DNA of 64,000 bases from Chitinophagales bacterium (GTDB taxonomy: Bacteria > Bacteroidota > Bacteroidia > Chitinophagales > CAIOSU01), in the NCBI GenBank assembly GCA_040877935.1, contig JBBDNB010000008.1, forward strand, positions 1 through 64,000. Reading direction: 5' to 3'. Under the pieces are notes generated by a model. That model was given only the letters and a program-made list of their open reading frames with translations. It ran no database searches and was not told the origin of the DNA. The position numbers and the translations under genes were made by a program. The number at the start of each line of letters is the position of its first letter. The first letter of the stretch is position 1. Below, piece after piece: positions 35,740 to 64,000 of the stretch.

Positions 35740-36065
35740 TTTTTTCTTTTAGATAAACCTCAAAAGTTAAAGGGATTAAAGGCTTATTACTCATTGTACT
35801 AAATAACTGCCATGAAATTATACTTTTATCTCTAAACTTAAAATGGAAAAATTCACAAAAACTAAATGATTCTTCCTGCAATAATTTAGCATAGAGCCAA
35901 ATTATCACTGAAAGGGACAATTATTTCATGCCGATTAATCTATTTCGATGCTTAGTGAGATTTTAATTAAAAGTTCTTTAATTTACTCCTTAAACTCAAT
36001 CTAAATAGATAGGAAATCTTAAAATAGTAACGAGATTTGTTGTCTAATCAAGTATAAATAGGAAA
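35740..36065. other. Intergenic region without recognisable features
   Basis: 326 bases of A/T-rich sequence between the divergent haloperoxidase-like and FAD-oxidoreductase genes. It probably holds both promoters, but I find no match to TTTG-N20-TAnnTTTG, no repeat and no credible small gene. Confidence 0.4.
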
Positions 36066-37109: not shown

Positions 37110-37122
37110 TGGAATTATTAAT

Positions 37123-39708: not shown

Positions 39709-39809
39709 ACATGTTATATTTAAACAAAACAACAAATCAATTTGCTATTTCTAGCTTAAGATTCAAATTAACAATATATTTTCTAAAATCCAATGCTCTA
39801 TTGAGTACT

Positions 39810-42610: not shown

Positions 42611-42737
42611 TAGCTTAACGCAAATTTTTCTCTATCAATTTTTTATTCAAAGGATATAGTGAATGTAACTAAAAAGAAGAGAACTATTACACCGCATGAT
42701 TTTATTTCGTTAGTATAAACCAATAATTTATTAGTAT

Positions 42738-44411: not shown

Positions 44412-44416
44412 GAGCT

Positions 44417-45106
44417 TTACCTAAATATGTAGAAGCTGATCATTTCTTTTAAAGTATTGATTATTGCTGATGGCTTAGAAACTGTTGCAATTCCGGTTAA
44501 TCTCATTTTTTGATCGACTTCGACTTCTTCGATTTTAAAACCGAGTTTATTTGCTTTTACCAACACTTCAGATAGCATAAAAAGCCCTTTGGAATTTATT
44601 TCAATAGAATTGAAAATATCTCTTTTATATAAATGAATCCAATTGTAGTCTTTTAATTTAATTGAGAATAACCAGGAAATTAAAAAGTGATAAATTTTAG
44701 AGTTAAGCAGCATTGACCTTGTATAGCCTTTTCTTTCTTTTCTGTAGCTTATAATAATGTCTGCAAAATCAATATTGCTGCTAAAAAAAGTATGACAAGT
44801 ATCCTTGTCCAACGGACTATCTGCTGGAATACAAATTATATATTCATTTGTAGAATTTTCTATACCTAGTTTAACAGCGCTACCAAACCCTTCATTTTCT
44901 TTGTTTATAATTTTAAAATCAGGGTTAAGAGCATAATTTGTATTAATAATCTCTAAAGATTTATCGGTACTGCCATCATTAACAATTATATATTCTACTT
45001 TGTCAAAGTATAAATTTGCATTTTTAATTGTTTCTGAAATGCAATCAATAATAATATCTTCTTCATTAAATACCGGAGTTATTATAGATAGAGAACTTTT
45101 TCGCAT
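44417..45106 (-). CDS. Family 2 glycosyltransferase (dolichol-phosphate-mannose synthase-like)
   Basis: 229 residues: SIITPVFNEEDIIIDCISET, VEYIIVNDGSTDKSLE, and ICIPADSPLDKDT (D-x-D position reads PADSPLD). It lacks C-terminal membrane helices. This subclass typically loads a sugar from a nucleotide donor onto polyprenol phosphate, which would give donors for GT-C-like enzymes. Start overlaps the upstream Gfo/Idh/MocA gene by 41 nt. Confidence 0.87.
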   Translation of the reverse strand: MRKSSLSIITPVFNEEDIIIDCISETIKNANLYFDKVEYIIVNDGSTDKSLEIINTNYALNPDFKIINKENEGFGSAVKLGIENSTNEYIICIPADSPLDKDTCHTFFSSNIDFADIIISYRKERKGYTRSMLLNSKIYHFLISWLFSIKLKDYNWIHLYKRDIFNSIEINSKGLFMLSEVLVKANKLGFKIEEVEVDQKMRLTGIATVSKPSAIINTLKEMISFYIFR

Positions 45107-46091
45107 TAATTTCTAAGGATTTTTGGATTTTATTTAAAACAGAAACAACTTTTAAAGCATTTTGGGCATTTGTTATTGGAATTGTTTTGTTTACGATTGA
45201 ACTAATAAAATGATTAAACTCAATTATTAAAGGCTCCTCGTAATTGATATTAGGTATATGTATATCTCCATCTTTCATTGAAAGCTGAAAACTACCAAAA
45301 TCTCCATTAAATTTTTGATAAGATTCACCGGTTTCAAAGATTTTAAGTTTTGAATTAGTATCTACATCATTAAAAATAATCATCTTTTTATCACCAACAA
45401 TTTTTATGGTTCTTTCTTTTGAGGCTTCAAGCCATGATGCATGAATGTTAACAATTAACTTGTTGTTGTATTTCATATTAACAAACACTAAATCTTCTAT
45501 GCCTTCACTAAAGAAACACATTCCGGTAGCATTTATCTGTTTAGGCTGATCATCTAATAAATAATTTAAAATCGATACATCGTGTGTTATTAAATCATAT
45601 ACAACATTCACATCTGTTCTTACCGGCCCAAGACTAGCTCTTACCATTGTTATGTACAGTATCTCTCCTAATTCTTTATTTTCTATTATTGTTTTAATCT
45701 TATTAACAACTGGGTTGAATTCAAAAATCTGCCCAACCATAAGGGTAACGTTATTCTTCCGGGCAATGTCATCAAGTGTAGATACCTCTGATGCTTCAGT
45801 GGCCAAGGGCTTTTCACAAAAAACATGAATTTTCTTTTCTAAAAAGAATTTAGAAATATTAAAATGGGTGTTTGTAGGTGAACAAATTATTACCGCATCT
45901 AAATCGTAGTTTAAAGTTTTTTTGTAATCTTTTTCGAATGGAATTTGATCGTGAATTTGAAAGAAAATATCGTTGGATTGATTTTCATCTATATCACATA
46001 TCACAAATAGTTTTGCACTACTTGAATTTAAAATTACCCTTGCAAAATTTCTGCCCCAATAGCCAAAACCAATTAAGCCAATTTTCAACAT
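45066..46091 (-). CDS. Gfo/Idh/MocA-family oxidoreductase 2
   Basis: 341 residues: KIGLIGFGYWGRNFARVILN (GxGxxG), VIICSPTNTHFNISKFFLEK, KKIHVFCEKPLATEASEV with the catalytic Lys, and VYDLITHDVSILNYLLDDQP. It is nearer to the WlbA/KijD10-type sugar-nucleotide dehydrogenases than the copy at 37123. Possible role is C3 oxidation of a nucleotide sugar. Fourth gene in the minus-strand operon from 49137. Confidence 0.9.
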   Translation of the reverse strand: MLKIGLIGFGYWGRNFARVILNSSSAKLFVICDIDENQSNDIFFQIHDQIPFEKDYKKTLNYDLDAVIICSPTNTHFNISKFFLEKKIHVFCEKPLATEASEVSTLDDIARKNNVTLMVGQIFEFNPVVNKIKTIIENKELGEILYITMVRASLGPVRTDVNVVYDLITHDVSILNYLLDDQPKQINATGMCFFSEGIEDLVFVNMKYNNKLIVNIHASWLEASKERTIKIVGDKKMIIFNDVDTNSKLKIFETGESYQKFNGDFGSFQLSMKDGDIHIPNINYEEPLIIEFNHFISSIVNKTIPITNAQNALKVVSVLNKIQKSLEINAKKFSIYNNSGI

Positions 46092-46133
46092 AAATATTCA
46101 GTGTATTATATTCTAATAATTATTTTAACCCAT

Positions 46134-47840
46134 TTACCTTAAATCAATTTGAAAAATCTCAAAATCACTGCCGGCAATAGAGTTGTTGCTCACAGAGGGT
46201 TTCATGCATTCATGCTTATTTTTTTTACTACTGATAGGTGTGAATGAAACTTCAATATCATAAATCACTTTCATGAATTGTTCTAAAATCTCAACTCTAT
46301 TTGTATTCCCTATGTATAAAACCTGATTATCGGCAGCCCAATTTAAAAATAATACAGGGTTTTCTGCTTTGCAATTACAAATTGTGGACAAATATCGCAC
46401 ATAAGAAGGCACTATTGAATATGTACTTAAATCGTACATTAGATATGTATTCTTTGTGTAATTCTTATTCTTAATACTTGGCGGTTTGTCAAATAGGTGA
46501 TATGCTTCTAAAGATACTAAGAGATATCGGTTTTGAAAGTTTTCTTCAATTTTGTGCATAGTAGATTTGTAGCAATCTATGGCTTCAGCTACTGAACTGT
46601 AATTTTCTATATAGTTCTTAATTGTGTATCCAAATGCGGGCACAATTAGTATTATTGATAAAACAGCAGTTATAAGTGTATGCTTGCTATTTTTTATCTC
46701 TGACCTGAATAAATAGAACAAACAGATTAATAAAGTAAATATTTGAAAACACAAAAAATGTCTTAAGTAAATTTCTGCTTTATAATCTATTATAGAAAGC
46801 AGTAAGAAATTGAAAACATTAAATAATACAATAGAAGTGAAAGTTTTCAATCTATTGTCAGAGATTAGAGATAATACAATTAATATTATTAAAACAGCAG
46901 GGATAAATAAATAATACTTGTAAAACCCATAAATATTAGTAAACGATCTAATTAGCTTATCTAATTTGAAATTATATTCAGGAGTAGCTATTTTATCTCT
47001 TATAAAATCAGCACTCAGGGTTTCTGAATCAATAAACATTCCCCTGGTAGCCATTCTATATTTAACGGAATCAACCTTGTTTTCCATTTCACTTATTGGA
47101 ACAACCCTTCCCGTTGATAATATATACTCAATATTTGGTTCTATTTTTTTCTCAAATCTATCCGTGTGGTTCCAGTCAATTATAAAAACTGTCGCTACCA
47201 ATAAAATTATGAAAGTGGGTATAAATGAGCGCTTAATTAAACGCTTAAAAGAAGTAAAATAAATAAAGTGCCCGACACTGATTAATAGAAGCATTCCAAT
47301 TGCTGCTTCCGGTCTAAAACACATGCCTGATATGAATATAATAGTGTAAACGGATGCTTGCTTAAATGTAATTTTTGGACTGAAGAAAAATCCAAACATA
47401 GATACACCACACAATAGAAGTGCTGTCCTTGTATATGTTAATGATATAAAAGACTCCATGAATATTAATGAAATCAAAATTTGTGTCCATATTAACAAAA
47501 CATAGCCCTGGTGTTTGTCAAATATTACTTTTTTGACTAAAATTAATGCAACAAATAAACTTAACCAGCAGAATAACACATAACTTATTACTAACCAGTT
47601 AATTGCCGGAAATATATTGAATAAAAATTTTAAAGGTTCGTTAATTCCAACTAAGAAAAGGTAATGCCAATCTATTATAGAGTAATTACTAAATTGTAAT
47701 GAAGCCGCATTGTAAATTAACGAATCATAAGAATCATCAAAGGTGATCGGAAAAAAAATCAAGCAAACTAATACTGTTAAAATACTGATTGTAAGTTCTG
47801 CTAAATAATATCTTTTAGTGAATGTAAAGTCTTGTTTCAT
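46134..47840 (-). CDS. Polytopic membrane protein C, GT-C-like
   Basis: 568 residues. First loop ITFDDSYDSLIYNAASLQ has the acidic cluster; MCFRPEAAIGMLL is the R-x-E-x-A motif; the loop KKIEPNIEYILSTGRVVPIS is near-identical in plan to KKIEPDVEYELTTRNNIVSV in protein D, so C and D form one subgroup and A and B the other. A cysteine pair CNC in the C-terminal region also recurs in D (YCNC). Overlaps the GT2 gene at 47837 by 4 nt, linking it to polyprenol-sugar synthesis. Confidence 0.77.
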   Translation of the reverse strand: MKQDFTFTKRYYLAELTISILTVLVCLIFFPITFDDSYDSLIYNAASLQFSNYSIIDWHYLFLVGINEPLKFLFNIFPAINWLVISYVLFCWLSLFVALILVKKVIFDKHQGYVLLIWTQILISLIFMESFISLTYTRTALLLCGVSMFGFFFSPKITFKQASVYTIIFISGMCFRPEAAIGMLLLISVGHFIYFTSFKRLIKRSFIPTFIILLVATVFIIDWNHTDRFEKKIEPNIEYILSTGRVVPISEMENKVDSVKYRMATRGMFIDSETLSADFIRDKIATPEYNFKLDKLIRSFTNIYGFYKYYLFIPAVLIILIVLSLISDNRLKTFTSIVLFNVFNFLLLSIIDYKAEIYLRHFLCFQIFTLLICLFYLFRSEIKNSKHTLITAVLSIILIVPAFGYTIKNYIENYSSVAEAIDCYKSTMHKIEENFQNRYLLVSLEAYHLFDKPPSIKNKNYTKNTYLMYDLSTYSIVPSYVRYLSTICNCKAENPVLFLNWAADNQVLYIGNTNRVEILEQFMKVIYDIEVSFTPISSKKNKHECMKPSVSNNSIAGSDFEIFQIDLR

Positions 47841-48739
47841 TCTGAATCTATTACCTTTTCAACAATGAAATTAGGTCTTTTTCGAACACTTTCATGAACC
47901 CTACTAATATACTCTCCTATTATTAAGAGCATTAGACTAATTAAAACAGATAAAAAAGGAATTTCTAATTTTTCTAAGTCGTACCCAGGGGTAATCATCA
48001 CTATCAATAATTTTACAAATAAATATATTACTAATAGCACAAACGAAAACCTAATTGTCCAGAGTGGTATATTACCAAAAGAAAAGAATGTATCCACAAA
48101 CAATTTAGCTTTTGCAAAAAACTTCCACTGCGACTTCCCATATTTTCGTTCCTCCCTATTGTATGGAATATTAACATATGGATATCCTAACCAGGAAATT
48201 AAATAAACATTATTGGTATTTTTTTCAGAAATCGCTACAATTTCTTCTCTTATTTTTGAATCAAATAATACAAGGTCAAAGCCACCTTTAGGGATATCTT
48301 TAATAGCAAAGTGTTTAACCATTATATGATATAAATTTGAAAATATACTATTATCAGCCCTTTCTGAACGATTAGCTATAACAAGTTTGTATCCATTTAA
48401 ATAATGCTCAAACATTGATGGTATTAACTCTGGGGGGTCTTGAAGGTCTGCATGTAAATAAACATTACAATCACCTTGCGCATAGATCATACCTGCTAAA
48501 AATGAATTGTACGAACCAAAATTCCGGGTAAGTTTAATAATCTTTATTTGATTAGGGTATTTAGCCTTTATTTCCTGTTGAATTGTATAGGTATCATCTT
48601 CAGATTTATCATCCACAAACACATATTCGATAGTATGAGCATTAAAGACTTGATTTTCTTCAATTTTTTTAAGTCGATTTATCAGTTCCCACAAGCTTTC
48701 TGCATTATTATAGCAAGGTATGATTATTGAAATATTCAT
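47837..48739 (-). CDS. Family 2 glycosyltransferase with C-terminal membrane helices (ArnC-like)
   Basis: 300 residues: NISIIIPCYNNAESLWELIN, VEYVFVDDKSEDDTY, LHADLQDPPELIP (D-x-Q-D), REERKYGKSQW, and two C-terminal helices (FVLLVIYLFVKLLIVMI and FLSVLISLMLLIIGEYI). This plan is that of ArnC/GtrB/DPM-type enzymes, which move a sugar to undecaprenyl phosphate. It would supply the lipid-linked sugar for its overlapping partner, protein C. Confidence 0.92.
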   Translation of the reverse strand: MNISIIIPCYNNAESLWELINRLKKIEENQVFNAHTIEYVFVDDKSEDDTYTIQQEIKAKYPNQIKIIKLTRNFGSYNSFLAGMIYAQGDCNVYLHADLQDPPELIPSMFEHYLNGYKLVIANRSERADNSIFSNLYHIMVKHFAIKDIPKGGFDLVLFDSKIREEIVAISEKNTNNVYLISWLGYPYVNIPYNREERKYGKSQWKFFAKAKLFVDTFFSFGNIPLWTIRFSFVLLVIYLFVKLLIVMITPGYDLEKLEIPFLSVLISLMLLIIGEYISRVHESVRKRPNFIVEKVIDSE

Positions 48740-49315: not shown

Positions 49316-50791
49316 TTATTTACTACTATTATCGTCCTTATTCAATTCAATACTAAGGTTTTCTGATAGTTTTTCATTTGATAAAACTAAATTAAATCCA
49401 AACGCAAATGGAATAAAAGCAGGATTAAATGGGCAGGTAAACTTTGCATTAGCAACCGTAGCTATATCTTTCAGATATAAAATTTCAGAAGGATTTACAG
49501 GAATTGAATCATTTTCACTTCCCCAAACATTAAAATTGTTTTCTCCACTCGATAAAGTTTTGCCACCATTAATTTTTATGTTTTCTTCAGATTCGCTTTT
49601 GGTTATGAATAAAGGTGCTTTAAGCTGGTTAATATTTACACCTGAATCAGGAACACTTATCACAACCTGATCTAATGGTGATTTCCTGTGAATATATCTG
49701 ATTAACATGTTTTTATTCATCACATACAACTCATTTGAGATAAAAGGTATAAAATCATCCATCTCTTTTATTGGTGAATCGGGTATATAATTATTTACTA
49801 AGCCTAATAATTTTTCTCCGTAAACTTGCCCATTCACGTCATTAAATTTTCCTTTTAAATCTAGTTGTTTAATTTGCATAACTAATAAATTTATGGAATC
49901 ATACACTACAGCACCTCTTTTTTCTTCCAGATTTAAAAAATAGCCCCTTTCTTCCCAGAAAATTTCACAACCAGGACATAATACGAATTCTCCCGATATT
50001 TTCATTTTTTGTTCGCTATGAAACACAGGACTGTACATTACTGTATTTGACTTTTGCTTTAAATTAATTTTGTATTTTTCTATAATGTCTCCTCTTTCAG
50101 GAACATCATATTTTTCACTCCACCATTGATGATGATCATATTTTTCAATCAATGAAGTATCAGCAACAATATCTTCAAATGAAGCATAGCCATTAGGTGA
50201 GTTTTTATATTTATTAATAAACGCAGGCTTCTTCGGGTCAACATCAACCATGACCCAGGCATCATTAATTTTAACCTCTATAAAACTGTTGTGATCTAAA
50301 GCTACTTCTCTGAAATCATCATAATCAAAATACGGTGTTCGAACCAACAGCTCAATAAAACCTTTATAAAAATCATTGGAATTTTTAGAAGGCTGCCCCC
50401 ATATCATGCCCATCAACGAATATTTTAAGGCATAGAGCTGTTCATTTTCATCTTCAAGGAAAAGATGTCGATCATTATTAAAAAAAACAGATTTGAATAA
50501 GCTTCCTGCCTTTTTAATAAGTTTTATTTGAATGTCTGCTTTTTCGGCTTCTTTATTTAAACCCTCTAGTAAATAAGCAATTAGAGTCGAATCATTTCTA
50601 AATGCATTTTTTAAATCAGGTATATTTGGCTGAACATAGAATGCTACTGGCTTATCCCCTGCATTTGTAATGCTCGTAGTAAAATGAAATTTTTTGGATT
50701 TAGAATCAAATTTATGCCCGGGTACTTTTAACTGGGCTGAAATATTTGAGCAAAGAATAAAAATCAAAATACTTGTAATTGAAAATTTCAT
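49316..50791 (-). CDS. Secreted transglutaminase-like protein with Cys-to-Ser change, copy 1
   Basis: 491 residues, signal peptide SITSILIFILCSNISAQ. HNSFIEVKINDAWVMVDVDP (His167 to Asp183/Asp185) reads like the His-Asp half of the transglutaminase-like fold. About 30 residues before it, KNSNDFYKGFIELL aligns with the usual G-x-C-x-D-F-A, with Ser138 where the nucleophilic Cys should be. A conserved CPGC occurs at about residues 238-241. So it is probably a non-enzymatic or altered relative. Paralogous over its whole length to the divergent gene at 51234. I do not recognise a named family. Confidence 0.72.
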   Translation of the reverse strand: MKFSITSILIFILCSNISAQLKVPGHKFDSKSKKFHFTTSITNAGDKPVAFYVQPNIPDLKNAFRNDSTLIAYLLEGLNKEAEKADIQIKLIKKAGSLFKSVFFNNDRHLFLEDENEQLYALKYSLMGMIWGQPSKNSNDFYKGFIELLVRTPYFDYDDFREVALDHNSFIEVKINDAWVMVDVDPKKPAFINKYKNSPNGYASFEDIVADTSLIEKYDHHQWWSEKYDVPERGDIIEKYKINLKQKSNTVMYSPVFHSEQKMKISGEFVLCPGCEIFWEERGYFLNLEEKRGAVVYDSINLLVMQIKQLDLKGKFNDVNGQVYGEKLLGLVNNYIPDSPIKEMDDFIPFISNELYVMNKNMLIRYIHRKSPLDQVVISVPDSGVNINQLKAPLFITKSESEENIKINGGKTLSSGENNFNVWGSENDSIPVNPSEILYLKDIATVANAKFTCPFNPAFIPFAFGFNLVLSNEKLSENLSIELNKDDNSSK

Positions 50792-51233: not shown

Positions 51234-52700
51234 ATGAAATTAGTAGACCTTGTTATTTTCCTATGTTTATTGACCTTCAATGAAAACATACTTGCACAAG
51301 TAGAGGTTTCCGGTCATAAGTTCGATTCCAGCACTAACAAATTTCATTTTACTACCAATATAAAAAACTCAAGTTCAGAACCTATATCATTTTATATTAA
51401 ACCTAATGTGCCAAAATTAAACACAGCCCTTAGAAATGATTCTACACTATTAAACTACTTACTTGAAGGCATTAATAAAAAAAGTGATGAAGCATCCATT
51501 AAAATCCACTTGATAAAACAAGCCGGACAACTTTTTAAGTCTATACATTTCAAAAATGACATGGACTTGTTCTCTGGAGAAACTGATTATTTGTACAGTT
51601 TGAAATACTCATTAATGGGCATGCTATGGGGACAATATGTTAAAAGCTCTAAAGATTTTTTCAGGGGCTTTGCGGAATTGCTCATGAAAACCGGTTATTT
51701 CAAAGTAGAGGACTTTAGAGAACTATCTACAAATTATCATTCATTTGGAGAAGTAAAGGTTAATGATTCATGGATAATGGTTGACATTGATCCAAAAATG
51801 CCCGGCTTTATCCATGAATACAGAAAATCTCCTAATGGATTTGCCTCTTATGAAGCCATAGTAAAGGACACTTCTATTGTTCAGAAATACAATATCAATC
51901 CTTGGTGGGACAAAAAAGAGATTATCCCTGTAAGTGGGGATATACTTGAAGGTTATAAAAGGAATATGAAAAAATCAGCAAGCACTTTAGCGGTATCTTT
52001 ATATTCCCCCCTTTCTAAACCAAAAGAAATATCAGGTGAATTCGTATTATGCGCTGGATGCGAGATTAATTGGGAACAATCCGGTTATGTACTGGATTTA
52101 AGAAAAAATGAAGCTAAAGTATTTTTCGATTCATTGCACTTAATGAGAGAACAATTAACCAGACTTTCATTAGACGGGGAGATTTCCGAATCAAAAGGCA
52201 TGTCTTTTGCTAAAAAATTCATCTACGGTGTAAATGATTTTTTCCCTGACGAACCGGTAGATTTGCATATGAAATATTTTTACGACTTCCTGAATAACAA
52301 ATTGTTTGTTAGGTATCATGAGCATTTTGAAAGATTCATCTACCGCAACTCTCCGCTGGATACATTGGATTTAATTATCCCGGAATCCGGATTTGAAAGC
52401 GGAGCATTAAAAGCCCCACTCTTTGTCACGAATTGTAGCAGCAAAAATGGATTCATATTTGGGGGTAAGCAAATCAGTGGTAATACAGTGTTTAATGTAT
52501 GGTTAGATGAGAATAATGCCGATTCAAATAATGTAAGCCCAGATAATATTTTTTATTTGCAAAACTGTTCATCTAACGGGGGTGGTAAAATTACAACTGC
52601 TTTTAACCCATCATTTATACCCTTTGCCCTGGGTTTTGAATTAGTACTTAAAAATCCTGAAAATGCTGGGGCTATTATTGTAAAAACCGAAAGTAATTAA
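51234..52700 (+). CDS. Secreted transglutaminase-like protein with Cys-to-Ser change, copy 2
   Basis: 488 residues with signal VDLVIFLCLLTFNENILAQ. It matches copy 1 along its length: EVSGHKFDSSTNKFHFTTNI, SLKYSLMGMLWGQ, HSFGEVKVNDSWIMVDIDP (His169, Asp184/Asp186), FVLCAGCEINWE, and FNPSFIPFALGFELVL. Ser139 in KSSKDFFRGF replaces the expected Cys, as in copy 1. It leads a plus-strand set with the two genes downstream. Confidence 0.72.
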   Translation: MKLVDLVIFLCLLTFNENILAQVEVSGHKFDSSTNKFHFTTNIKNSSSEPISFYIKPNVPKLNTALRNDSTLLNYLLEGINKKSDEASIKIHLIKQAGQLFKSIHFKNDMDLFSGETDYLYSLKYSLMGMLWGQYVKSSKDFFRGFAELLMKTGYFKVEDFRELSTNYHSFGEVKVNDSWIMVDIDPKMPGFIHEYRKSPNGFASYEAIVKDTSIVQKYNINPWWDKKEIIPVSGDILEGYKRNMKKSASTLAVSLYSPLSKPKEISGEFVLCAGCEINWEQSGYVLDLRKNEAKVFFDSLHLMREQLTRLSLDGEISESKGMSFAKKFIYGVNDFFPDEPVDLHMKYFYDFLNNKLFVRYHEHFERFIYRNSPLDTLDLIIPESGFESGALKAPLFVTNCSSKNGFIFGGKQISGNTVFNVWLDENNADSNNVSPDNIFYLQNCSSNGGGKITTAFNPSFIPFALGFELVLKNPENAGAIIVKTESN

Positions 52701-53351: not shown

Positions 53352-53435
53352 AACACTTATCAGTTTGCATGTTTAATTTAGTGTTATAAAACAGAATATT
53401 AGATAGTTCCAAAATCATTGGATCAACACCTATTT

Positions 53436-55727
53436 ATGAAAGAAAGATATTTTTTATTTAGCCTATTGGTTTATTTGCTATTGCCCTTTTGTATACTTTC
53501 GTACTATACATATCCGGGACTTGAAGATTATTCACAATCGATGCTTTCACAAACATTGGGGCGTTTTGTACATTTCAAGGATTTGTATTTCACCTATGAC
53601 GGAAGATATTTTGTAGCTCTACTTTATGCAATTAACCCACTGGTTAATTACAATTTTTGGATGTATAAACTTATTCCACTGCTTCATTTTGTGTTATTAT
53701 ATTCAGGACTATTATACTTAATGAAAGTAAGTTTCCCAAAAACAAACTTAAACACCTTATTGCTTTATTCTATTCTATTATTTGCAATGAGCATTTATGT
53801 TTTCCCCTCTATGCCTGCAGCCTTTTATTATATGGTAAGTACAATGGTGTATTTCACACCAATGGTATTAACTGTACTACTGTGCATATTAATTATACTA
53901 ATGTATAAATCATTAGTAGGAGGACGTAAGTTTATATATTTACTACTTGCTTCTATTTTTATTTTAATGATTTTGGGATGTAATGAAATGTATCTAATCC
54001 TATTGCCTTATACCGTATTCAGCTTAGTAATATACTTCTCTTTCAAAAAATCTGATCATAAAGCTGAGAGTTTCATTTTATTGTTTGCCGTTGCTTGTGG
54101 TTTATATATTCATCTATCTGCACCTGGTATCCAATCACATTTCACACAAGAACCTATTAATTTTGACTTGGCTTATTTATCAAATAAAATAAGCATAACT
54201 ATTTCGCAAAACATAAAAATAAACTGGACTTGGCTTAAAAATCATTATTTACTATGGGCTCTAAGCGTTCTATATATTCCTGTAGGAATAAAACTGGTTC
54301 AAAACAACCCAAGTTTGCAGCAAAACAAAAAATCATATTTGCTGTTTTGCGTATCTGCTTTAGCAATATACTTAATATTACCCCTGCCCTATTACTGGGC
54401 ACTAGATCATGTAGAAGGTGATTATCCGGATAGGATATTCAATGTAACACATTTTCTTTTTCCATTTCTGTGGTTTTTTATACTTCAAAACATACTTAAT
54501 TTTTCTTACCCCTATTTAAATATTTCGCTAAATATTAATAATGTAAATATTATTTCAAGCTTTACTTTTTTGGGATTATTGCCATTTTCACCTACCTGGA
54601 ATTCGGCAGTAACTGATATTCTTAGTGGAGATGCTCGAAATTACCATCTTGAGATGCAAAAACGTTTGGAGCTATTAAAAACTCATGACAAAAATGATAT
54701 CGTATATATTGATACGCTTAGAAGCAAACCCAAAACAATTTTTAGCGGCTTCGATTTACAAAATAACAGGTTTGGAGGATGGAATGAAGTATACGAGAGC
54801 TATTTTAAAGTCCAGCAAATTATTTTAGAAGGAGATAAGGAAATTAAACCAAGGAAAAAAAGCAAATTCAATTCAAAAAAGATTAGCAAGGAAGAATTAC
54901 AAAAAAGATTTTTATCAGATAATATTCCTTTAGAGAATATAGACTCGGCAATTAATATTGGACTTTTTGATCCAAGTGATTCATTATGTAATAAACAAGT
55001 ACTTGTTTATCCACCAATCAATTTTGAATGGATAGACCTTAATAAAGATATTGAAAAAGGGGGTGTTGAAGGTCTAATTGCTTTAACATCTTCATTATAT
55101 CAAATATTTGCGGATCCAAGGATGCCTCAAAAAGAAAACTATCCATATGAAAAAATGTCTTTAGATTCTATATTATCAAATATAATATCAGGTGTTTGGG
55201 CACCTCAGTGCGGAGGAATCTCATTAATTACTTCAAGGATAATAAATGAACTGGGTGAAAGTAATTATTTTGCTACTGCTGCACATTTAGATGAAATTGA
55301 ACACGATATATGCCTTGTTTATTTTAAAGAAAAGACTATATTATATGCTGTGGCTATAGATGTTCAAAATGGTATCATTGGTCCAATCTATAAAGACTCT
55401 CGTAAGGCAGTATCAATAGATGAATTAAAACAAAACATAAATATTACCGATAATGTTACCCTACTTCATTTAAATGACAGTATCTTACGCAGGAAACGAA
55501 ATCTGTACGAAGAGATTCCCGCTTGCAACTTTTTTCCATTGGATATAGAAGATTACCATTTTGCTCAAAAAGAAAATGAATATAAATTCGAAATTTTGAG
55601 TTACTCCCTTCATTATTATTTATGGTTCAAAAAAAACAGATTGAATGAAATTGACTTAATCAGTGATATTAATAACAAGATCATTTTACATGAGTCTTTA
55701 AACAAAGCAATTATTAATTCTAATTAA
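53436..55727 (+). CDS. Polytopic membrane protein with C-terminal transglutaminase-like domain (Cys-His-Asp intact)
   Basis: I start at the ATG at 53436 (763 residues); a TTG six codons earlier is possible. Residues about 1-400 have about ten membrane helices and DUF6056-like features: GLEDYSQSMLSQTLG, YTYDGRYF-like FTYDGRYFVALLY, CNEMYLILLPY, and SAPGIQSH. After about residue 440 the protein is soluble. Cys592 in PQCGGISLITSRII, His623 in DEIEHDICLVYF and Asp642 in VAIDVQNG are spaced as in transglutaminase-like enzymes (31 and 19 residues), and the Cys-His distance equals the Ser-His distance in the two secreted relatives. Membrane fold could be GT-C-like. No described fusion of this kind is known to me. 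Confidence 0.7.
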   Translation: MKERYFLFSLLVYLLLPFCILSYYTYPGLEDYSQSMLSQTLGRFVHFKDLYFTYDGRYFVALLYAINPLVNYNFWMYKLIPLLHFVLLYSGLLYLMKVSFPKTNLNTLLLYSILLFAMSIYVFPSMPAAFYYMVSTMVYFTPMVLTVLLCILIILMYKSLVGGRKFIYLLLASIFILMILGCNEMYLILLPYTVFSLVIYFSFKKSDHKAESFILLFAVACGLYIHLSAPGIQSHFTQEPINFDLAYLSNKISITISQNIKINWTWLKNHYLLWALSVLYIPVGIKLVQNNPSLQQNKKSYLLFCVSALAIYLILPLPYYWALDHVEGDYPDRIFNVTHFLFPFLWFFILQNILNFSYPYLNISLNINNVNIISSFTFLGLLPFSPTWNSAVTDILSGDARNYHLEMQKRLELLKTHDKNDIVYIDTLRSKPKTIFSGFDLQNNRFGGWNEVYESYFKVQQIILEGDKEIKPRKKSKFNSKKISKEELQKRFLSDNIPLENIDSAINIGLFDPSDSLCNKQVLVYPPINFEWIDLNKDIEKGGVEGLIALTSSLYQIFADPRMPQKENYPYEKMSLDSILSNIISGVWAPQCGGISLITSRIINELGESNYFATAAHLDEIEHDICLVYFKEKTILYAVAIDVQNGIIGPIYKDSRKAVSIDELKQNINITDNVTLLHLNDSILRRKRNLYEEIPACNFFPLDIEDYHFAQKENEYKFEILSYSLHYYLWFKKNRLNEIDLISDINNKIILHESLNKAIINSN

Positions 55728-56088: not shown

Positions 56089-57798
56089 GTGATTCATAGC
56101 ACCATACACAATATAAACTTGCTTTTAAGAAACAGTATATTTTTATTGGTTTTGTCATTTTTAACACTATTATTTAGTTATTTTCTATATGGGTTCTATT
56201 ATGTAAGATATGAACCTATTTTTACAGCAATGATTGAGGGAGTGCTTACTCCAGGAATGCCTTATAATGATTTTTATTATTTAGTTCATATACTACTCAT
56301 TAAGGTTTACTCTTATTTTTTTACAAGTTTCCCAGAAATTCCCTGGTTAAGTGTATTCCAATACTCCTACTTGTTGGTTAGCCTTTTTATAATTTTAAAT
56401 ATATTCAGTAAATATGTTTTAAAATTCAAAAACTATTTAGCTGTCGTTATACTACTAATAATATTTTATAGTGAACAAGCAACAACTCTAATATGCACCA
56501 ATATTGGTTTTTTAATGAGTTTTTCAGCTCTCTTTGCTTTGGCATATGAATTTAGGCACAATAAACTCACTTATAAAAGTAGGCTGTTCTATAATTTATT
56601 TTATGTAGCGGGGCTTTTCACACGACCTGAAGCTGCTGTTTTAATGCTATTTATTGTTGGGCTTTATTACTTCTTGATTTTAGATCAAAATAAATTAATC
56701 ACAAAGTTTACAAACTCAATAAAGCTATATCTGATACCAGCGATAATATCGGTAACAGTAATTATATGGTTTGCCCATGATATCAGTACATCAGATGCAT
56801 TTTACAAAAAAATAGAACCGGATGTAGAGTATGAACTCACCACGAGGAATAATATCGTATCTGTAAACAAAATGAATAGCTACATTGATACAATGAGATA
56901 TAAAGCTATAAATAAAAATATGTGGGGAGATGCTACAACTAATGATGCTGAATTTCTAAGATCATTAATTGATAAAGAAATGGAAACAAGGGATTATCAA
57001 TACATGATGATGAATACCTGGACACTCTTTTTTAACGCTTTGTTGGCTTCAAAATTCCTTTTCCTGTTTAATATTTTAATTATTTTATTCATAACGCTGG
57101 CCGGGTATGTAAAAAAGAATAAAGAAACTTTAAAAATGCTCCTTTATCATATTATTATTTGGATGTTTTTTCTCTTTATTGGGTATAAAGTTAAAATGAC
57201 AGATACAGGAATGTCTGTATTATTATGCTCTATCAACATACTTTATGTATCTTTTTTGTTTATAGTTATTGATATTAAAAATAATGCGTTGCAAAATATT
57301 TTTTTGATGTTGTCCCTTGTTTTTTTCTTAGGGCATGGAACAAATTTATGGTTCAAAAGCAGGAGCTTAAATAAGTTTTATATAGAACAAAAAAACCTGA
57401 AAAGTGAATTTGATGAAATCATTCAAGGCAAAAATATTTTCCTAAACAGCCAATCTGCAAGTATGATATTAAATGCATTTAAACCATTTGAAAGTTATAA
57501 ATTCAACAATTACCAAAGTGTGGTATTATTTGATATCCAACATATAAGCACCGTAGAACCCTACAGGTCTTATTTACAAGCTTATTGTAATTGTGACCCC
57601 AATCATTACGGTGAATTCTTTAAATTTGTAAGGAAAGGAGGAGAGGAAAACATTTTTCTAATGAGCGCATCTTATAAAGACTTCCTTACAGAATACCTGA
57701 ATGTTGTTCATAAAATAGATATCCAATGGAAACTCTTATATCCAGCCAATCCTGATGAAAAGGAAGCTGTCAGGGCATATACAATAAAACAATCATGA
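56089..57798 (+). CDS. Polytopic membrane protein D, GT-C-like
   Basis: 569 residues from a GTG start (no closer ATG before the first helix). First loop GFYYVRYEPIFTAMIEG, R-x-E-x-A as LFTRPEAAVLMLF, loop KKIEPDVEYELTTRN, and ending YKDFLTEYLNVVHKIDIQW identify it as the fourth member of the local family, closest to C. YCNC occurs in the C-terminal region. Its last 4 nt (ATGA) overlap the first of three consecutive 2OG oxygenase genes, tying the family to oxidation of its product. Confidence 0.77.
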   Translation: MIHSTIHNINLLLRNSIFLLVLSFLTLLFSYFLYGFYYVRYEPIFTAMIEGVLTPGMPYNDFYYLVHILLIKVYSYFFTSFPEIPWLSVFQYSYLLVSLFIILNIFSKYVLKFKNYLAVVILLIIFYSEQATTLICTNIGFLMSFSALFALAYEFRHNKLTYKSRLFYNLFYVAGLFTRPEAAVLMLFIVGLYYFLILDQNKLITKFTNSIKLYLIPAIISVTVIIWFAHDISTSDAFYKKIEPDVEYELTTRNNIVSVNKMNSYIDTMRYKAINKNMWGDATTNDAEFLRSLIDKEMETRDYQYMMMNTWTLFFNALLASKFLFLFNILIILFITLAGYVKKNKETLKMLLYHIIIWMFFLFIGYKVKMTDTGMSVLLCSINILYVSFLFIVIDIKNNALQNIFLMLSLVFFLGHGTNLWFKSRSLNKFYIEQKNLKSEFDEIIQGKNIFLNSQSASMILNAFKPFESYKFNNYQSVVLFDIQHISTVEPYRSYLQAYCNCDPNHYGEFFKFVRKGGEENIFLMSASYKDFLTEYLNVVHKIDIQWKLLYPANPDEKEAVRAYTIKQS

Positions 57799-58649
57799 CA
57801 GACATAATTTTAAAATATAAAAATATAGAAAACAGCACCATTGATAAAGCTACACTTTCATCATTGTTTCAACGCAATACTGACATCATTAACATTGATA
57901 ATTTCATCAGTCTTAATACTGCTGATGAACTTTTAAGTGCCCTAAGAATTTCAGATAAAAATGAGGACAAAGGTTATTTTAGACTTCCTGATGGATGTTT
58001 TTTTCCTTTTCCATACTCTATAATTAGGGGCGATCAGGAAAATGCTGCTGAAGCACTAAATAACTATTTAAGTTCAAACAAATCATTTTCAAAGCGTTTT
58101 TTCACAAGTGAGCATGCTGCTGCAAATGTAATAAGAAAGCAAATAGAACAATCAGGAGGCACAAAACTACTTTGTTTACCCAATCAAATTTGTCTATCTC
58201 CAATGAGCTTTCGTGTACTTTTTTCCGGAAAAAATGGTATTGATATACATTGTGAAAATGCATTTTTAAACCAATTAGATTCAGAATTTAAAAAAAACAT
58301 TTATGAAGTGATTGATCTTGAAAATGCATTGTCCCTTTTTATTACATTACAAGCTCCCGAAGAAGGTGGTGAACTGGTATTATTCAATAAGTCATGGGAA
58401 AACACACAAATCAATGTTAATGAAACATCCTATGAAGAACGACATAATATTGATGGGTCTATTTTTAAGAATAGAGGGCATACAAATATAGAGCACTATA
58501 TGATAAAACCTAAAAAGTGTTCTGCAACAATTTTTAGGGCTGCTCAAATATGGCACAGTATCAATTACATTGAAGGGAACCTCGATCGCGTTACAATTGG
58601 TTGTTTTATAGCAGAAGGAAAGGATGGAAACATTTATTATTGGGCCTAA
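57795..58649 (+). CDS. 2-oxoglutarate/Fe(II) oxygenase-like protein (H-x-E type)
   Basis: 284 residues. IDIHCENAF gives the facial triad His152 and Glu154 (H-x-E in place of H-x-D), AAQIWHSI gives His254, and LDRVTIGCF gives the 2OG-binding Arg265. EEGGELVLFNKSW is a typical double-stranded beta-helix turn. The layout is nearer to prolyl-hydroxylase-like/small-molecule hydroxylases than to PhyH. Cytoplasmic; substrate unknown. Overlaps membrane protein D by 4 nt. Confidence 0.78.
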   Translation: MTDIILKYKNIENSTIDKATLSSLFQRNTDIINIDNFISLNTADELLSALRISDKNEDKGYFRLPDGCFFPFPYSIIRGDQENAAEALNNYLSSNKSFSKRFFTSEHAAANVIRKQIEQSGGTKLLCLPNQICLSPMSFRVLFSGKNGIDIHCENAFLNQLDSEFKKNIYEVIDLENALSLFITLQAPEEGGELVLFNKSWENTQINVNETSYEERHNIDGSIFKNRGHTNIEHYMIKPKKCSATIFRAAQIWHSINYIEGNLDRVTIGCFIAEGKDGNIYYWA

Positions 58650-58705
58650 ACTTGATTAATAAATGCTCTTTTAATCATTACCTTCAATTTTCTATATAAA
58701 GAATT

Positions 58706-59596
58706 ATGGAACAGATATTAAAGGACAAACAATTAAATTCAGCGTATCATAATAAAGGATTTGTGAAGTTTCCCTTATTTGATGCTATGCAAATTTCAGA
58801 AATCAAAGAATTTTACAACTACATTCGCGAGAAACACAATGCTAAAAAAAATAATGCTTTTCATACTACCCTAAACACCAGTGATAGCAATATAATTAAT
58901 AAAGTTAATGATTTCTTAATACCTTATTATAAAAAAGAAATTAATAAATATTTAATAAACTACAATCTAACGATAAGTGTATTTTTGACAAAAGACAGAG
59001 GTAAAAATTCTTCTGTAACCATTCATCAAGATGGCTCGTTTGTAGATGAAACAAAACATACTGCATTTGGTCTTTGGGTTGCTTTAGACAATACAAACGT
59101 CTTAAATGGATGTATGCAGTTTATTCCGGGAAGTCATAAATTTTACCCTTCCTTGCGAATTTCACCAGATCTCCCTCCCTATTTTTATTCTTTTAAAGAT
59201 GCTGCGGTCGATTATCTTGTTGACGTACCATCAAAAGCAGGAGAATGTGTTATGTTCAATCAGGCTATAATACATGCTTCAAGGAAAAACTTTTCAAACA
59301 AGCAAAGAGTAGCTTGTATTACAGGTGGGTATTCAAAAAATGCTGAATTTACACATCATTTTTTACCAAAGGGAAATCCGCTATCAAAAATCGAAAAATA
59401 TAAAATCAGCGTTAAATCTATGTTAGAAATGAAAAAAGATGAACGTCCTAAACACGCTGAATTTTTAGGGTATATAGATTATAAAGCACCGGACGTTTCA
59501 TTTGAAGTATTTAAAGATAAATGCGAATTAAATGTTGGCACTTTATACAAATACAGAAATAGAATTATCAATAAATTAATCGGAAAAAGCAGTTGA
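58706..59596 (+). CDS. Phytanoyl-CoA dioxygenase (PhyH)-family oxygenase 1
   Basis: 296 residues: VTIHQDGSFVDE (His107, Asp109), FGLWVALDNTNVLNGCMQFI, PGSHKFYP, VMFNQAIIHAS (His190) and KQRVACITG (Arg201), so all Fe(II) and 2OG ligands are present. The C-terminal signature GNPLSKIEKY...ERPKHAEFLGY recurs in the protein at 61356. PhyH enzymes hydroxylate or halogenate carbons of lipids and small molecules. 56 nt after the previous oxygenase gene. Confidence 0.88.
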   Translation: MEQILKDKQLNSAYHNKGFVKFPLFDAMQISEIKEFYNYIREKHNAKKNNAFHTTLNTSDSNIINKVNDFLIPYYKKEINKYLINYNLTISVFLTKDRGKNSSVTIHQDGSFVDETKHTAFGLWVALDNTNVLNGCMQFIPGSHKFYPSLRISPDLPPYFYSFKDAAVDYLVDVPSKAGECVMFNQAIIHASRKNFSNKQRVACITGGYSKNAEFTHHFLPKGNPLSKIEKYKISVKSMLEMKKDERPKHAEFLGYIDYKAPDVSFEVFKDKCELNVGTLYKYRNRIINKLIGKSS

Positions 59597-59630
59597 ATTT
59601 ACAACAACACTACTTAATATATAAATTACA

Positions 59631-61337
59631 ATGATAAAATACGAAATATTACAGCAGTCTATAGAGAATATAGGTTTCAGTAAAATACAACTGGGCGATC
59701 AATCTATGATAGATGACTTAAAAAGTATTTTTAGGAAATATTATCAGGAAAAAATAAAGGATCAAGACATGTCTGTTACGCATAATGATCCTAAAGATCG
59801 GAACAACTTAAAAGTACACAATGAAATAGTAAATACGATAAAACCATATTTTGATCAACATTTTGAAAACTTTAATTTTCTTGCGAGTCATTTTGTAGTA
59901 AAAAGAGCAAAAAGCAATGAAGCATTTCAACTTCACCAGGATTGGAGTGCTGTTGACGAAAGATACTATCAAAATTACCAAGTTTGGATCCCACTTGATG
60001 TTTCTTATCCTGAAAATGGAGGGATTTGTTTTATCCCTGAAAGCCATTCCTTTTACAACAATATACGCTCTGGCAGTATGGGAATTACCCATATTCCAAT
60101 CGACAAAAAAATGCATCCATATTTATCCTATATGAGACTATTTGCTGGAGAAGCTGCTGTTTTTCATAATAAAACATTTCACGGGTCATTTATTAATTCA
60201 ACTCCAAAGGAGAGAGTTGCAGTATTAGTAAATATCACACAAAAAAATGCCCAGGCGCTTTATTTTCATAAAGATGATTCAAATCCAAATCAAATTGATG
60301 CTTTTGAAATTAACACAGAAGAAATTTTTCAACACTTACCTAAACTAGAAAAGGGGATACTTCCCTTTAAGAAAAAAGCTGAGTTTTCTATTGAAAACAA
60401 TGTGACCCAGAATTCAGAAATTACCGCCTCGGGGTTGATTGATAAAATCCATGAACATAATGTGAGCAAAGGAAGAGCTAAAACCTACGAACATAAAATA
60501 TTTCATATACTTAAAAGCCAGAAAATTGAAGCAAAGATAAATGAAAAAGGCTTTGTAGTTGTTGATCTTTTAGACGATAACACCATAAAAAAACTCCAAA
60601 ATAAATTTGAAGAAACATTTCCTGATACATCTTTATTCAGAGGGACATTTTCATCCCTAGAATTGGAAAACGCTAAAGACAGAAGAGATTTGCATAAGTT
60701 TATAATAAATACAATAAAAAATAACTTAGATAACTACTTCAAAGATTACAAATCTCCTGTTAGTTTGCTTTACTCAAGAAAAGCAGATAACCAATACCCA
60801 CTGGAATGGCACAACGACCCTTCATTAATATTTAATGAATCTATAGAACCACTATATGGCATATGGGCACCATTTATAGATGTGGATAATAATACTGGCG
60901 CATTAAAAGTGATACCCGGTTCTCACAGGATTTTTAATAAAATTAATTTTGCTTACAACGTATTTAAATGGCCATTGGAAAATAAAAGGAAGTTTTTGGA
61001 TAGTTATGGTAAAACTTTTCAATTAAAAGCAGGCCAGGCAATTATTTTTGATTCCCGTATAATACACTCATCAGAACCAAATCAAACACAGGTTAATAGA
61101 AACAATATTGTTTTAAGAGTTCACCACAAATATTCCGAATATTTTAACGTGATTACTGCTTCAAATTCAGCAGATAAAGGTATATTGTATAAACAAAGGG
61201 AAGATTATTTTTTTTCAGAAACACATAAACTTCATAATGTTAAACCTAATACTGGAGATAATGTAGGAGAAATTTATTTGTTTTACGATGATATCGATAA
61301 TAACTATATTAAAGAAAAATTAGAACATTTAACATAA
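59631..61337 (+). CDS. Tandem PhyH-like double-domain oxygenase
   Basis: 568 residues made of two oxygenase domains. Domain 1: FQLHQDWSAVDE (His102, Asp104), GGICFIPESHS, KTFHGSF (His184), KERVAVLV (Arg195). Domain 2: LEWHNDPSLIF (His394, Asp396), GALKVIPGSHR, SRIIHSS (His479), NRNNIVLRV (Arg490). Both sites look complete. About 100 residues of linker (210-300) join them. The two halves are diverged, so it is an old fusion rather than a recent duplication. It ends 18 nt from a convergent PhyH gene. Confidence 0.87.
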   Translation: MIKYEILQQSIENIGFSKIQLGDQSMIDDLKSIFRKYYQEKIKDQDMSVTHNDPKDRNNLKVHNEIVNTIKPYFDQHFENFNFLASHFVVKRAKSNEAFQLHQDWSAVDERYYQNYQVWIPLDVSYPENGGICFIPESHSFYNNIRSGSMGITHIPIDKKMHPYLSYMRLFAGEAAVFHNKTFHGSFINSTPKERVAVLVNITQKNAQALYFHKDDSNPNQIDAFEINTEEIFQHLPKLEKGILPFKKKAEFSIENNVTQNSEITASGLIDKIHEHNVSKGRAKTYEHKIFHILKSQKIEAKINEKGFVVVDLLDDNTIKKLQNKFEETFPDTSLFRGTFSSLELENAKDRRDLHKFIINTIKNNLDNYFKDYKSPVSLLYSRKADNQYPLEWHNDPSLIFNESIEPLYGIWAPFIDVDNNTGALKVIPGSHRIFNKINFAYNVFKWPLENKRKFLDSYGKTFQLKAGQAIIFDSRIIHSSEPNQTQVNRNNIVLRVHHKYSEYFNVITASNSADKGILYKQREDYFFSETHKLHNVKPNTGDNVGEIYLFYDDIDNNYIKEKLEHLT

Positions 61338-61355
61338 ATAAAATAACAATTATAT

Positions 61356-62225
61356 TCAACTCATATTAAAAAGTTTGATATTAGCTCTTATATATTCTAA
61401 AGGATAATTTTTAAGCATGAATTGCTTAAAATGTTTATAGTCGAGTTGTTTAAAATTGTAATTATGATATCCTAAAAATTTAGAGGAAGGGCGCTGGTTT
61501 TTCTTTAATTCAGCAAAACTTTTAGTGTCGAATGCATATCTTTCTATCTTACTCTCTGGATTACCTGGTTCCAAATAATAAAAATTCCACTTAGCCTGCT
61601 TTGATTTAATTGATAATACAGCAGCTATTCGCTCTTTACCGGAATGATTTGCTGTCGCACCATGTATAAGCTTATTATCAAAAATTATTGCTTGACCTGA
61701 TTTCACTGGAATTTCTGTTGAATATTCAGGGATTTGATCTTTAAATTTATTAAAAAACGCGGGGAAATCAGGTGTTACAACAAGACAATCTGTAATTCTA
61801 TGCGAACCTTTAACAACACAAAGGTTACCATTTTCACTATTTGTATCCTGAAGGGCTACCCATATATTAGCACTCATATATTCATCAGAATCTACTAATG
61901 TAGGATCCTGATGATATGAAGTTTGGCTATTATCACCGGATTCTTTAACCATGAAAGAAGATAATATATGATCATATTCGTGTAAAATATCAGAAAGCTT
62001 TGGAACCAATATGTTTTTTATTTTTTCATCTAATTTTAGAATTAGATCTACATTAAAGGTATCAGTTGTGCTGTGCATCATATTTTTCACAACTAAATGC
62101 TCTTCTTTATGATCAAAGTACAAATCCCTGAGCTTTTGAACCTCAACATTATTTAGCAAATCAAATTTAACACATCCATCTTTAATGAATTTACTATGTA
62201 GCTTGCTGTTTTTAAACTTGATCAT
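61356..62225 (-). CDS. PhyH-family oxygenase 2
   Basis: 289 residues: TSYHQDPTLVD (His105, Asp107), ANIWVALQDTNSENGNLCVV, KGSHRI, FDNKLIHGAT (His188), KERIAAVLS (Arg199). The tail GNPESKIERY...QRPSSKFLGYHNYN pairs it with the 58706 protein. Opposite strand from the other three oxygenase genes but immediately adjacent, and 151 nt downstream of the exporter ATPase gene on its own strand. Confidence 0.88.
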   Translation of the reverse strand: MIKFKNSKLHSKFIKDGCVKFDLLNNVEVQKLRDLYFDHKEEHLVVKNMMHSTTDTFNVDLILKLDEKIKNILVPKLSDILHEYDHILSSFMVKESGDNSQTSYHQDPTLVDSDEYMSANIWVALQDTNSENGNLCVVKGSHRITDCLVVTPDFPAFFNKFKDQIPEYSTEIPVKSGQAIIFDNKLIHGATANHSGKERIAAVLSIKSKQAKWNFYYLEPGNPESKIERYAFDTKSFAELKKNQRPSSKFLGYHNYNFKQLDYKHFKQFMLKNYPLEYIRANIKLFNMS

Positions 62226-62376: not shown

Positions 62377-63657
62377 TCATTCAACCATTTTATGATCATT
62401 TACTTTCCATTCAGCCAAAGGTTTTATAAAAACATTCTGGCCTGCACCAGAAAAATCATAAGTGTTGATACCCTCTTTAACCTCAAATTTTATTTTAACG
62501 GGTAATTTATAAGCTTCTTCAGTATAAAGTTCTCCTTTTTCAGGATCCTTACCAAACATAAAGTCAGCATAAAATACACCTGAACTTAGAAGATTGGGAG
62601 GAACATTACATTCTAAAGTCATTTCCCCTTTCTTATGTTTTAAACTATTAAGTTTTTCGTAAATTGATTTATTATTACTTGAAACAAGGGATATAATGGG
62701 CTTCATGTAAATATCGTACAATACAATCATTAGATGCAATGACCATCCTTCTATTTTTTTTAAAACAGTAATTTTAATTTTAAATCCATTTTCATATGTA
62801 ATATCACTTGAATTGTCTACAGGTGTAATTTTAAAATCCAACACTTCAATGAGTTCATTGGCTAATTTATCTTGTGTTTTATTGATGTTATTTGAAAATT
62901 TTATTTTTTGACTTACAATATTTTTATCTTTTTCAGGAAAATATTTTGATTCAGCATATGATTTAGTCATGCTTTTATAATAATTTTCAACGACTTCACC
63001 TGCTTTTCCAAGCATTTTAATCTGTCCTTCTTCAAGCCAAATGCAATCTGTACAATTTTCCAATATTTCATCGGGGCTATGCGATGCCAAAAGCAATGTA
63101 GCTCCATCATTGGTTATTTCTTTAAAATACGAGGATGCTTTTTCCCTGAAGGCTGCGTCACCTGCCTGCAAAACCTCATCAATAAAAAACAAATCGGCAT
63201 TGATGTGAAAACCAGCCGATAAAGCCAGTCTTACAAACATACCACTGGAATAATGTTTAACAGGCTGTTCAAAATATTTACCTAAACCACTGAATTCTTT
63301 GATTTCATCTATGAAATCATTTTTTAAACTCCCATTAATCCCATTAATCTTCAGAAAGAAGTTGGTGTTTTCCCTTCCTGTAAGATCAGGAATAAAATTA
63401 CTGCCTAATTCTATAAGTGCATTTACTTTTCCCTTTATAACAGCACTGCCATTAGTAGGTTTTATTAAGCCGGATAAGATCTTTAATAACGTACTTTTTC
63501 CTGAGCCATTTTCGCCTATAACACCAATTCTTTGATTTTTATAAAACTGTACATTTATATTATTCAATGCATAAAAACCAAATTCACCCTTTTCATTTGG
63601 ATAATACCCCTTAGACAAGTCCTTTATATCTATTACAAGCTCTTTTTCAATCTCCAT
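62377..63657 (-). CDS. Wzt-type polysaccharide ABC transporter ATPase with C-terminal domain
   Basis: 426 residues. ATPase domain (about 8-245): Walker A GENGSGKST (48-56), signature HYSSGMFVRLAL, Walker B LFFIDEVLQAGD, and ASHSPDEIL. The C-terminal part (about 265-400, starting IEVLDFKITPVDN) has the plan of the Wzt carbohydrate-binding domain, which in O-antigen systems recognises the modified end of the chain before export. The partner permease (Wzm) is not in the window; the partial gene just upstream may lead to it. This gives the locus an export route for a lipid-linked glycan. Confidence 0.9.
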   Translation of the reverse strand: MEIEKELVIDIKDLSKGYYPNEKGEFGFYALNNINVQFYKNQRIGVIGENGSGKSTLLKILSGLIKPTNGSAVIKGKVNALIELGSNFIPDLTGRENTNFFLKINGINGSLKNDFIDEIKEFSGLGKYFEQPVKHYSSGMFVRLALSAGFHINADLFFIDEVLQAGDAAFREKASSYFKEITNDGATLLLASHSPDEILENCTDCIWLEEGQIKMLGKAGEVVENYYKSMTKSYAESKYFPEKDKNIVSQKIKFSNNINKTQDKLANELIEVLDFKITPVDNSSDITYENGFKIKITVLKKIEGWSLHLMIVLYDIYMKPIISLVSSNNKSIYEKLNSLKHKKGEMTLECNVPPNLLSSGVFYADFMFGKDPEKGELYTEEAYKLPVKIKFEVKEGINTYDFSGAGQNVFIKPLAEWKVNDHKMVE

Positions 63658-63706: not shown

Positions 63707-64000
63707 CTACTGTTCCAAAAAACAATCCACTTCTTTAAATACGTTGCAGAATCCTTCTACTTTTAGAAGCCTGAAATCACCTTTTTTAAAATTAAATCTA
63801 ATTTCTGCAATAACATCATGATTTTGTAAAACCCTTGCAGAATAGTAATCAGGCTTTTTATTTAATAAGATATCATTGCTTACAATACCTGATAATCTCA
63901 TAAACTCTATAAAAAAAACATACTCATCCTCTGTATTCATTTTGTACTTGTTTACCAATCCTTCGCATAAAAACTCATTTTCAAGTCTTTTTGTAAATCG
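63707..64000 (-). CDS. Partial protein of unknown function (continues beyond the window)
   Basis: The frame is open from the right edge (64000) to the stop at 63707, so this is the C-terminal 97 residues of a longer protein; the TTG at 63958 is not a convincing start. The visible part (EYVFFIEFMRLSGIVSNDIL, DYYSARVLQNHDVIAEIRFN) is mixed alpha/beta, without a motif I recognise. It lies 49 nt upstream of the exporter ATPase, likely one transcript. Confidence 0.6.
   Translation of the reverse strand, partial: RFTKRLENEFLCEGLVNKYKMNTEDEYVFFIEFMRLSGIVSNDILLNKKPDYYSARVLQNHDVIAEIRFNFKKGDFRLLKVEGFCNVFKEVDCFLEQ

Follow-up and report, generated by a model that had tools for sequence, protein, structure and literature searches.

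Introduction

We begin by considering ABC-dependent O-antigen export with end recognition, an established general model. The Wzm/Wzt systems of Aquifex aeolicus and of E. coli O8/O9a (with WbdD capping) have in common with the locus described here the permease Wzm, a Wzt with a C-terminal domain (similar, by profile comparison, to that of Aquifex), and modifying enzymes that adjoin the exporter. Where E. coli O8/O9a uses a kinase/methyltransferase cap, however, the loci of the present kind have arrays of 4-10 PhyH oxygenases between wzm and wzt, and fusions of Wzt with PhyH set them further apart from both systems. The nearest precedent in the open-licence literature is the ABC-dependent LPS locus of Xanthomonas citri, where a single PhyH gene (XAC3597/bdp11) lies near wzm/wzt; there is no array, and no H-x-N paralogue or WelO5-like partner (see below) is described there (PMC3130047).

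The orthosomycin oxygenases (EvdO1, EvdO2, EvdMO1, HygX, AviO1) resemble the array in another way: several PhyH-type enzymes serve one oligosaccharide pathway, one of them is fused to a methyltransferase, and they are fold neighbours of the enzymes studied here. Their products, however, are soluble actinobacterial antibiotics, and we know of no H-x-N clade among them and no Wzm/Wzt arrays in their pathways. The WelO5-type carrier-independent halogenases share the family PF22814 with one enzyme of our locus, and their H-x-G site is kept in six relatives at array loci; they belong to indole alkaloid pathways, whereas array loci are export clusters and the WelO5-like protein of our own locus carries H-x-E. 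LpxO is a further Fe/2OG oxygenase that modifies LPS. KdoO (Kdo hydroxylase) acts on an LPS sugar (PMC5462993) and can be likened to the array by function; it is a single enzyme on the LPS core as against many oxygenases.

Among these systems, we place the array/exporter locus with Wzm/Wzt-dependent glycan export, of which it is best regarded as a variant. The recurrence of the oxygenase array with the exporter suggests an undescribed chemical decoration of surface sugars before export. The initial annotation of this DNA knew of no described locus of such make-up, and we likewise find no earlier account of these arrays in the open-licence literature.

Results

The window, the whole stretch of DNA that was analysed, comprises 64,000 nt (positions 1-64000 of contig JBBDNB010000008.1, here C8, of the 4.03 Mb genome G000). 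In it the initial annotation had marked positions 56089-62225 as four genes with five oxygenase domains, coupled to a membrane protein and an exporter ATPase. Rechecking of the open reading frames reproduces every gene coordinate of this region and the 4-nt overlap (ATGA) between the membrane protein gene and the oxygenase gene 57795, and the gene said to follow the oxygenases does encode a Wzt/TagH-like ABC ATPase. These four genes show only half of the locus. Reading the contig beyond the window end at 64000 extends it to approximately C8:56089-72165, where ten oxygenase domains in eight genes accompany a complete exporter, the permease Wzm with its ATPase Wzt (Table 1).

Table 1. Features of the oxygenase/exporter locus on contig C8 and its possible upstream neighbour
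Feature	Position	Strand	Evidence or remark
Multi-pass membrane protein, weakly DUF6056-like, soluble C-terminal domain	53418..55727	+	PF19528 E=1.5e-4, below cut-off
Polytopic membrane protein, putative 'GT-C-like D'	56089..57798	+	~10 hydrophobic helices
WelO5-family Fe(II)/2OG oxygenase, H-x-E metal site	57795..58649	+	PF22814 E=1e-30
PhyH oxygenase, H-x-D...H...R	58706..59596	+	PF05721 E=4e-21, motif
Tandem PhyH-PhyH oxygenase, H-x-D...H...R in both	59631..61337	+	PF05721 E=5e-27, two stretches
PhyH oxygenase, 3' of wzt in exporter gene run	61356..62225	-	PF05721 E=5e-21
Wzt-type ABC ATPase with C-terminal domain	62377..63657	-	PF00005; NCBIfam Wzt/RfbE partial match
Small protein of exporter gene run	63707..64000 in window, continues to C8:64156	-	
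DUF6056 membrane protein	C8:64149-65633	-	outside window
PhyH	C8:65650-66615	-	outside window
GxxExxY protein	C8:66661-67074	-	inside exporter gene run, outside window
PhyH	C8:67490-68512	-	outside window
PhyH-PhyH	C8:68478-70421	-	outside window; overlaps wzm by 8 nt
Wzm permease	C8:70414-71247	-	PF01061 E=9e-12; outside window
H-x-N PhyH	C8:71248-72165	-	outside window

The exporter genes lie in a minus-strand run that begins at C8:72165 and reads, in order, H-x-N PhyH, Wzm, PhyH-PhyH, PhyH, GxxExxY protein, PhyH, DUF6056 protein, small protein, Wzt and the PhyH gene 61356, the last being convergent with 59631. A 100-base run of N at C8:67248-67347, beside the GxxExxY gene, leaves one junction of this run incompletely read. 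Inside the local cluster there is no dedicated polymerase and there are no repeat-unit glycosyltransferases. The gene at 53418 is a possible neighbour whose membership is uncertain; the C-terminal 300 residues of its product look like a separate soluble domain and contain a CGG... motif. Also upstream, two divergent paralogous genes (49316-50791 and 51234-52700) encode secreted proteins of ~490 aa with no Pfam match, in which an H...D segment (HSFxEVKVNDxWVMVDxDP) resembles that of transglutaminases but no obvious counterpart of their catalytic Cys is seen. GxxExxY-type genes occur in or near glycan loci twice, in the present run and on contig C43 of the same genome (L018:5831-6205).

We next describe the oxygenases. 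The PhyH genes 58706, 59631 and 61356, together with the four outside the window, score 74-174 bits against PF05721 (cut-off 22), and in a motif alignment all four PhyH domains of the window have the H-x-D...H metal triad and the 2OG-binding Arg. The gene at the head of the exporter run departs from this pattern, carrying H-x-N like every readable member of its clade. The product of 57795 matches PF22814 with 108 bits (cut-off 27), its best PDB match is of the WelO5 type (E=9e-15), and its putative ligands are H-C-E at aa 152-154 (nt 58248-58256), His254 and Arg265. By profile and motif, then, metal and 2OG ligands are present in all five domains of 57795, 58706, 59631 and 61356, as had been claimed. 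The halide-binding H-x-G site of the halogenases is not present in 57795, where H-C-E stands instead, and this H-x-E makes it a predicted oxygenase of the hydroxylase type rather than a halogenase.

Among the 11 WelO5-family proteins in Wzm/PhyH loci, H-x-G is found in six (L078, L097, L118 twice, L139 and L150) and H-x-E in five including 57795; from their motif, the sister loci with H-x-G probably encode halogenases. The family occurs in 6/23 array loci (defined below) against 2/45 others (p=0.015). As a general marker it fails, the only match in a 395-genome sample of the phylum being the genome itself, and we therefore treat it as an optional part. The solved enzymes nearest to the PhyH domains include oxygenases that tailor sugars or sugar ligands (SnoK, SnoN, EvdO2, HygX); SyrB2, PHYHD1 and MysH, whose substrates are not glycans, are about equally close.

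To see how often such arrays accompany the exporter, we consider two sets of loci. In the relatives, PhyH genes like 59631 are found in 13 of 41 genomes, and the arrays adjoin Wzm and/or Wzt in 12 of these 13, the exception being G025; an H-x-N/double-PhyH block of G014 is likewise without Wzm linkage. Scanning named genomes with a Wzm-only alignment yielded 80 loci, and the analysis covered the 69 from Bacteroidota that span 8 kb or more. No PhyH domain is present in 33 of them and one in 12 (together the 45 'others' of the comparisons with array loci), two in a single locus, three in none, and four to ten in 23, the array loci; the Wzm query set was taken from array loci, which inflates the share of 23/69 and leaves the two peaks and the lack of intermediates unaffected. 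In the array loci PhyH genes adjoin Wzm, and over the whole set the gene next after Wzm is Wzt in 30 loci and PhyH in 24. By record name, the array loci are of Chitinophagales, Saprospiraceae, Flavobacteriales/Fluviicola and Cytophagaceae.

The genome has one further Wzm (L021, C39:188041-190920), in the row Wzm-Wzt-PhyH; a 345-aa protein with no Pfam match and a 920-aa TPR membrane protein follow. On C43 there is a third region of glycan-like content, with PhyH, B12-radical SAM proteins, a carbamoyltransferase, an N-acetyl sugar amidotransferase-like gene of the WbuX family, a methyltransferase and UbiA. A conserved trio is seen beside PhyH loci (L019 on C43, L065, L072 and L076), namely a nitrilase-like gene, a WbuX-type N-acetyl sugar amidotransferase and a NodU-like carbamoyltransferase.

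In a tree of 220 PhyH domains, at least five orthologous groups are conserved across Bacteroidota orders: PPb, P3, P4, P5 and H-x-N each span Chitinophagales and Flavobacteriales with support of 0.78-0.99, and a further group, PPa, has members in Chitinophagales. The order is nearly constant, being Wzm, H-x-N, PPa-PPb, P3, P4, P5 and then Wzt. The H-x-N group forms a single clade (support 0.993), and an array that carries it has just one member. Every readable member has Asn where all other groups have Asp and retains both His and the Arg, the Asn being read directly in those H-x-N sequences that were fetched; the alignment comprises 14 sequences with identity down to 37%. A pattern search had suggested H-x-S and H-x-E in PhyH groups; alignment of the sequences showed these readings to be artefacts. 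Of 299 genomes in the order, ~49 match the H-x-N group strongly (above roughly 225 bits), and in the 395-genome phylum sample the genome itself alone does so.

The one H-x-N member that was modelled with AlphaFold gives a good structure (pLDDT 87), whose nearest solved folds are SnoK, SyrB2, SnoN, EvdO2, HygX and AviO1. With the two His and the Arg retained, the H-x-N protein is likely to bind iron and 2OG as before. Its reaction is probably unlike that of its H-x-D siblings, or it may be a non-catalytic partner. For an H-x-N paralogue that is invariant in the arrays carrying this group, the open-licence literature gave no precedent.

The genes of 56089-62225 are the accessory half of the locus. 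Most of the PhyH part of this module recurs in one other genome (L058, G032:C8), where the closest relatives of 61356 and of both domains of 59631 are found in the tree (supports 0.998, 0.98 and 0.74), the double PhyH there being orthologous to 59631. In another genome, locus L078 encodes in one direction a relative of 56089, three PhyH enzymes, a protein of WelO5 type and a fusion of Wzt with PhyH. The GC content of the module and Wzt (0.29-0.32) is below that of the Wzm/PhyH core (0.36-0.40), which suggests a separate origin.

The membrane protein 56089 is a different matter. Its identity as a GT-C glycosyltransferase is unproven: it has no Pfam match and no PDB match, profile-profile comparison with DUF6056 gives a probability of 1%, and the AlphaFold model, made from a four-row alignment only, has a pLDDT of 48. 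The acidic pair after TM1 that is present in some homologues reads YVRYE in 56089. Homologues exist in the same genome (window 46134-47840 and C43:185960-187555), and otherwise in 2/41 relatives and 2/23 array loci. Of the coupling that the initial annotation had seen, the link of the oxygenases to the exporter is supported, and more strongly than the four genes alone could show, by the Wzm/Wzt pair, the neighbourhoods in relatives and Wzm loci and two fusions, while that to the membrane protein is weak, its homologues being rare in relatives and array loci and its GT-C identity unproven. The homologue at 46134-47840 lies in a block (window 31109-48739) with two B12-binding radical SAM proteins, two GT2 glycosyltransferases and GFO/IDH/MocA oxidoreductases, and the gene kinds of this block recur on C43.

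We now examine the exporter and the genes that accompany it. When nine Wzt C-terminal domains, among them that of the window, are combined in a profile, it matches the corresponding domain of Aquifex aeolicus Wzt with E=2.5e-7; the window Wzt alone has no Pfam Wzt_C match. Wzt and PhyH are fused in both orders, as Wzt-PhyH (647 aa, L078) and PhyH-Wzt (718 aa, L097), each domain with a strong score, and a methyltransferase-PhyH-PhyH fusion occurs in four arrays of the same family. Methyltransferases of this family occur in 14 of the 23 array loci and in 6 of the 45 others (p=1e-4). UbiA prenyltransferase was considered as a core part and rejected, not being enriched (4/23 against 8/45). Clusters of the Fluviicola type also encode two GT2 glycosyltransferases, a DegT aminotransferase, a PseH-like N-acetyltransferase and KAS III, a set that fits an amino-sugar glycan.

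Discussion

We propose, with a probability of roughly 0.6, that the locus joins an oxygenase array to an exporter for oxidative tailoring of a glycan, which is then selected by Wzt and exported by Wzm. The PhyH and WelO5-like enzymes would act successively, while a lipid-linked glycan is still in the cytoplasm, on that glycan or on substituents of its sugars; it would thereby be hydroxylated or oxidatively rearranged several times, in many arrays with a methyltransferase taking part. The putative carbohydrate-binding C-domain of Wzt would select the modified glycan, by analogy with the end-cap recognition of E. coli O8/O9a, and Wzm would export it to the cell surface; the oxygenases would stand in place of, or in addition to, a capping enzyme. 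The Wzt/PhyH and methyltransferase-PhyH-PhyH fusions and the Aquifex-like Wzt C-domain support such tailoring before export, and the initial proposal that several positions of one molecule are oxidised before export is plausible.

The same enzymes could instead hydroxylate a lipid (an acyl or polyprenyl chain), with Wzm/Wzt exporting the lipid or a glycolipid. The founder of the PhyH family acts on branched acyl chains, and UbiA-like prenyltransferases and KAS III/ACP are present in some clusters. UbiA, however, is not enriched, and KAS III in the Fluviicola-type clusters adjoins the aminotransferase and the PseH-like N-acetyltransferase, pointing to acylated amino sugars. The Wzt C-domain resembles a carbohydrate-binding domain, and this, with the glycosyltransferases in some clusters, favours a sugar over a lipid, so that we think the lipid reading unlikely. 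We think it similarly unlikely that what the array makes for export is a soluble natural product, oligosaccharide-like and heavily oxidised as the orthosomycins are, and not a surface polymer. While EvdO2, AviO1, HygX and the methyltransferase-oxygenase EvdMO1 are among the structural neighbours, and arrays do contain methyltransferase-PhyH-PhyH fusions, the exporter is of the O-antigen kind with its carbohydrate-binding-like Wzt C-domain, the spread over the order is wide for an antibiotic, and neither a resistance gene nor typical assembly genes are seen locally.

It may also be asked whether unrelated tailoring genes have simply built up at a surface-polysaccharide locus, each PhyH acting alone and the link to Wzm/Wzt being genomic only. 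Polysaccharide loci often exchange genes, and the lower GC of the module (0.30) is consistent with a separate acquisition. The two-peaked PhyH counts, the paralogue set and order conserved across orders, the single H-x-N per array and the two Wzt/PhyH fusions argue against such a build-up, which we regard as quite improbable.

Within the preferred reading of glycan tailoring before export, a bolder version has the array as a dedicated tailoring line, with the H-x-D hydroxylases, the H-x-G WelO5-type halogenases of sister loci and a new H-x-N class of 2OG enzyme with chemistry of its own acting sequentially on one Wzt-recognised glycan, so that halogenated or oxidatively cyclised glycans would be expected at the surface of some Bacteroidota; we offer this tentatively and hold it to be rather doubtful.

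If oxidative tailoring before export is correct, a large oxygenase family with no assigned substrate would be tied to a definable export machine, and the surface glycans concerned would bear unusually many oxidations and, in some species, probably chlorinations. The conserved H-x-N site would then provide a test of what 2OG enzymes do without the carboxylate ligand.
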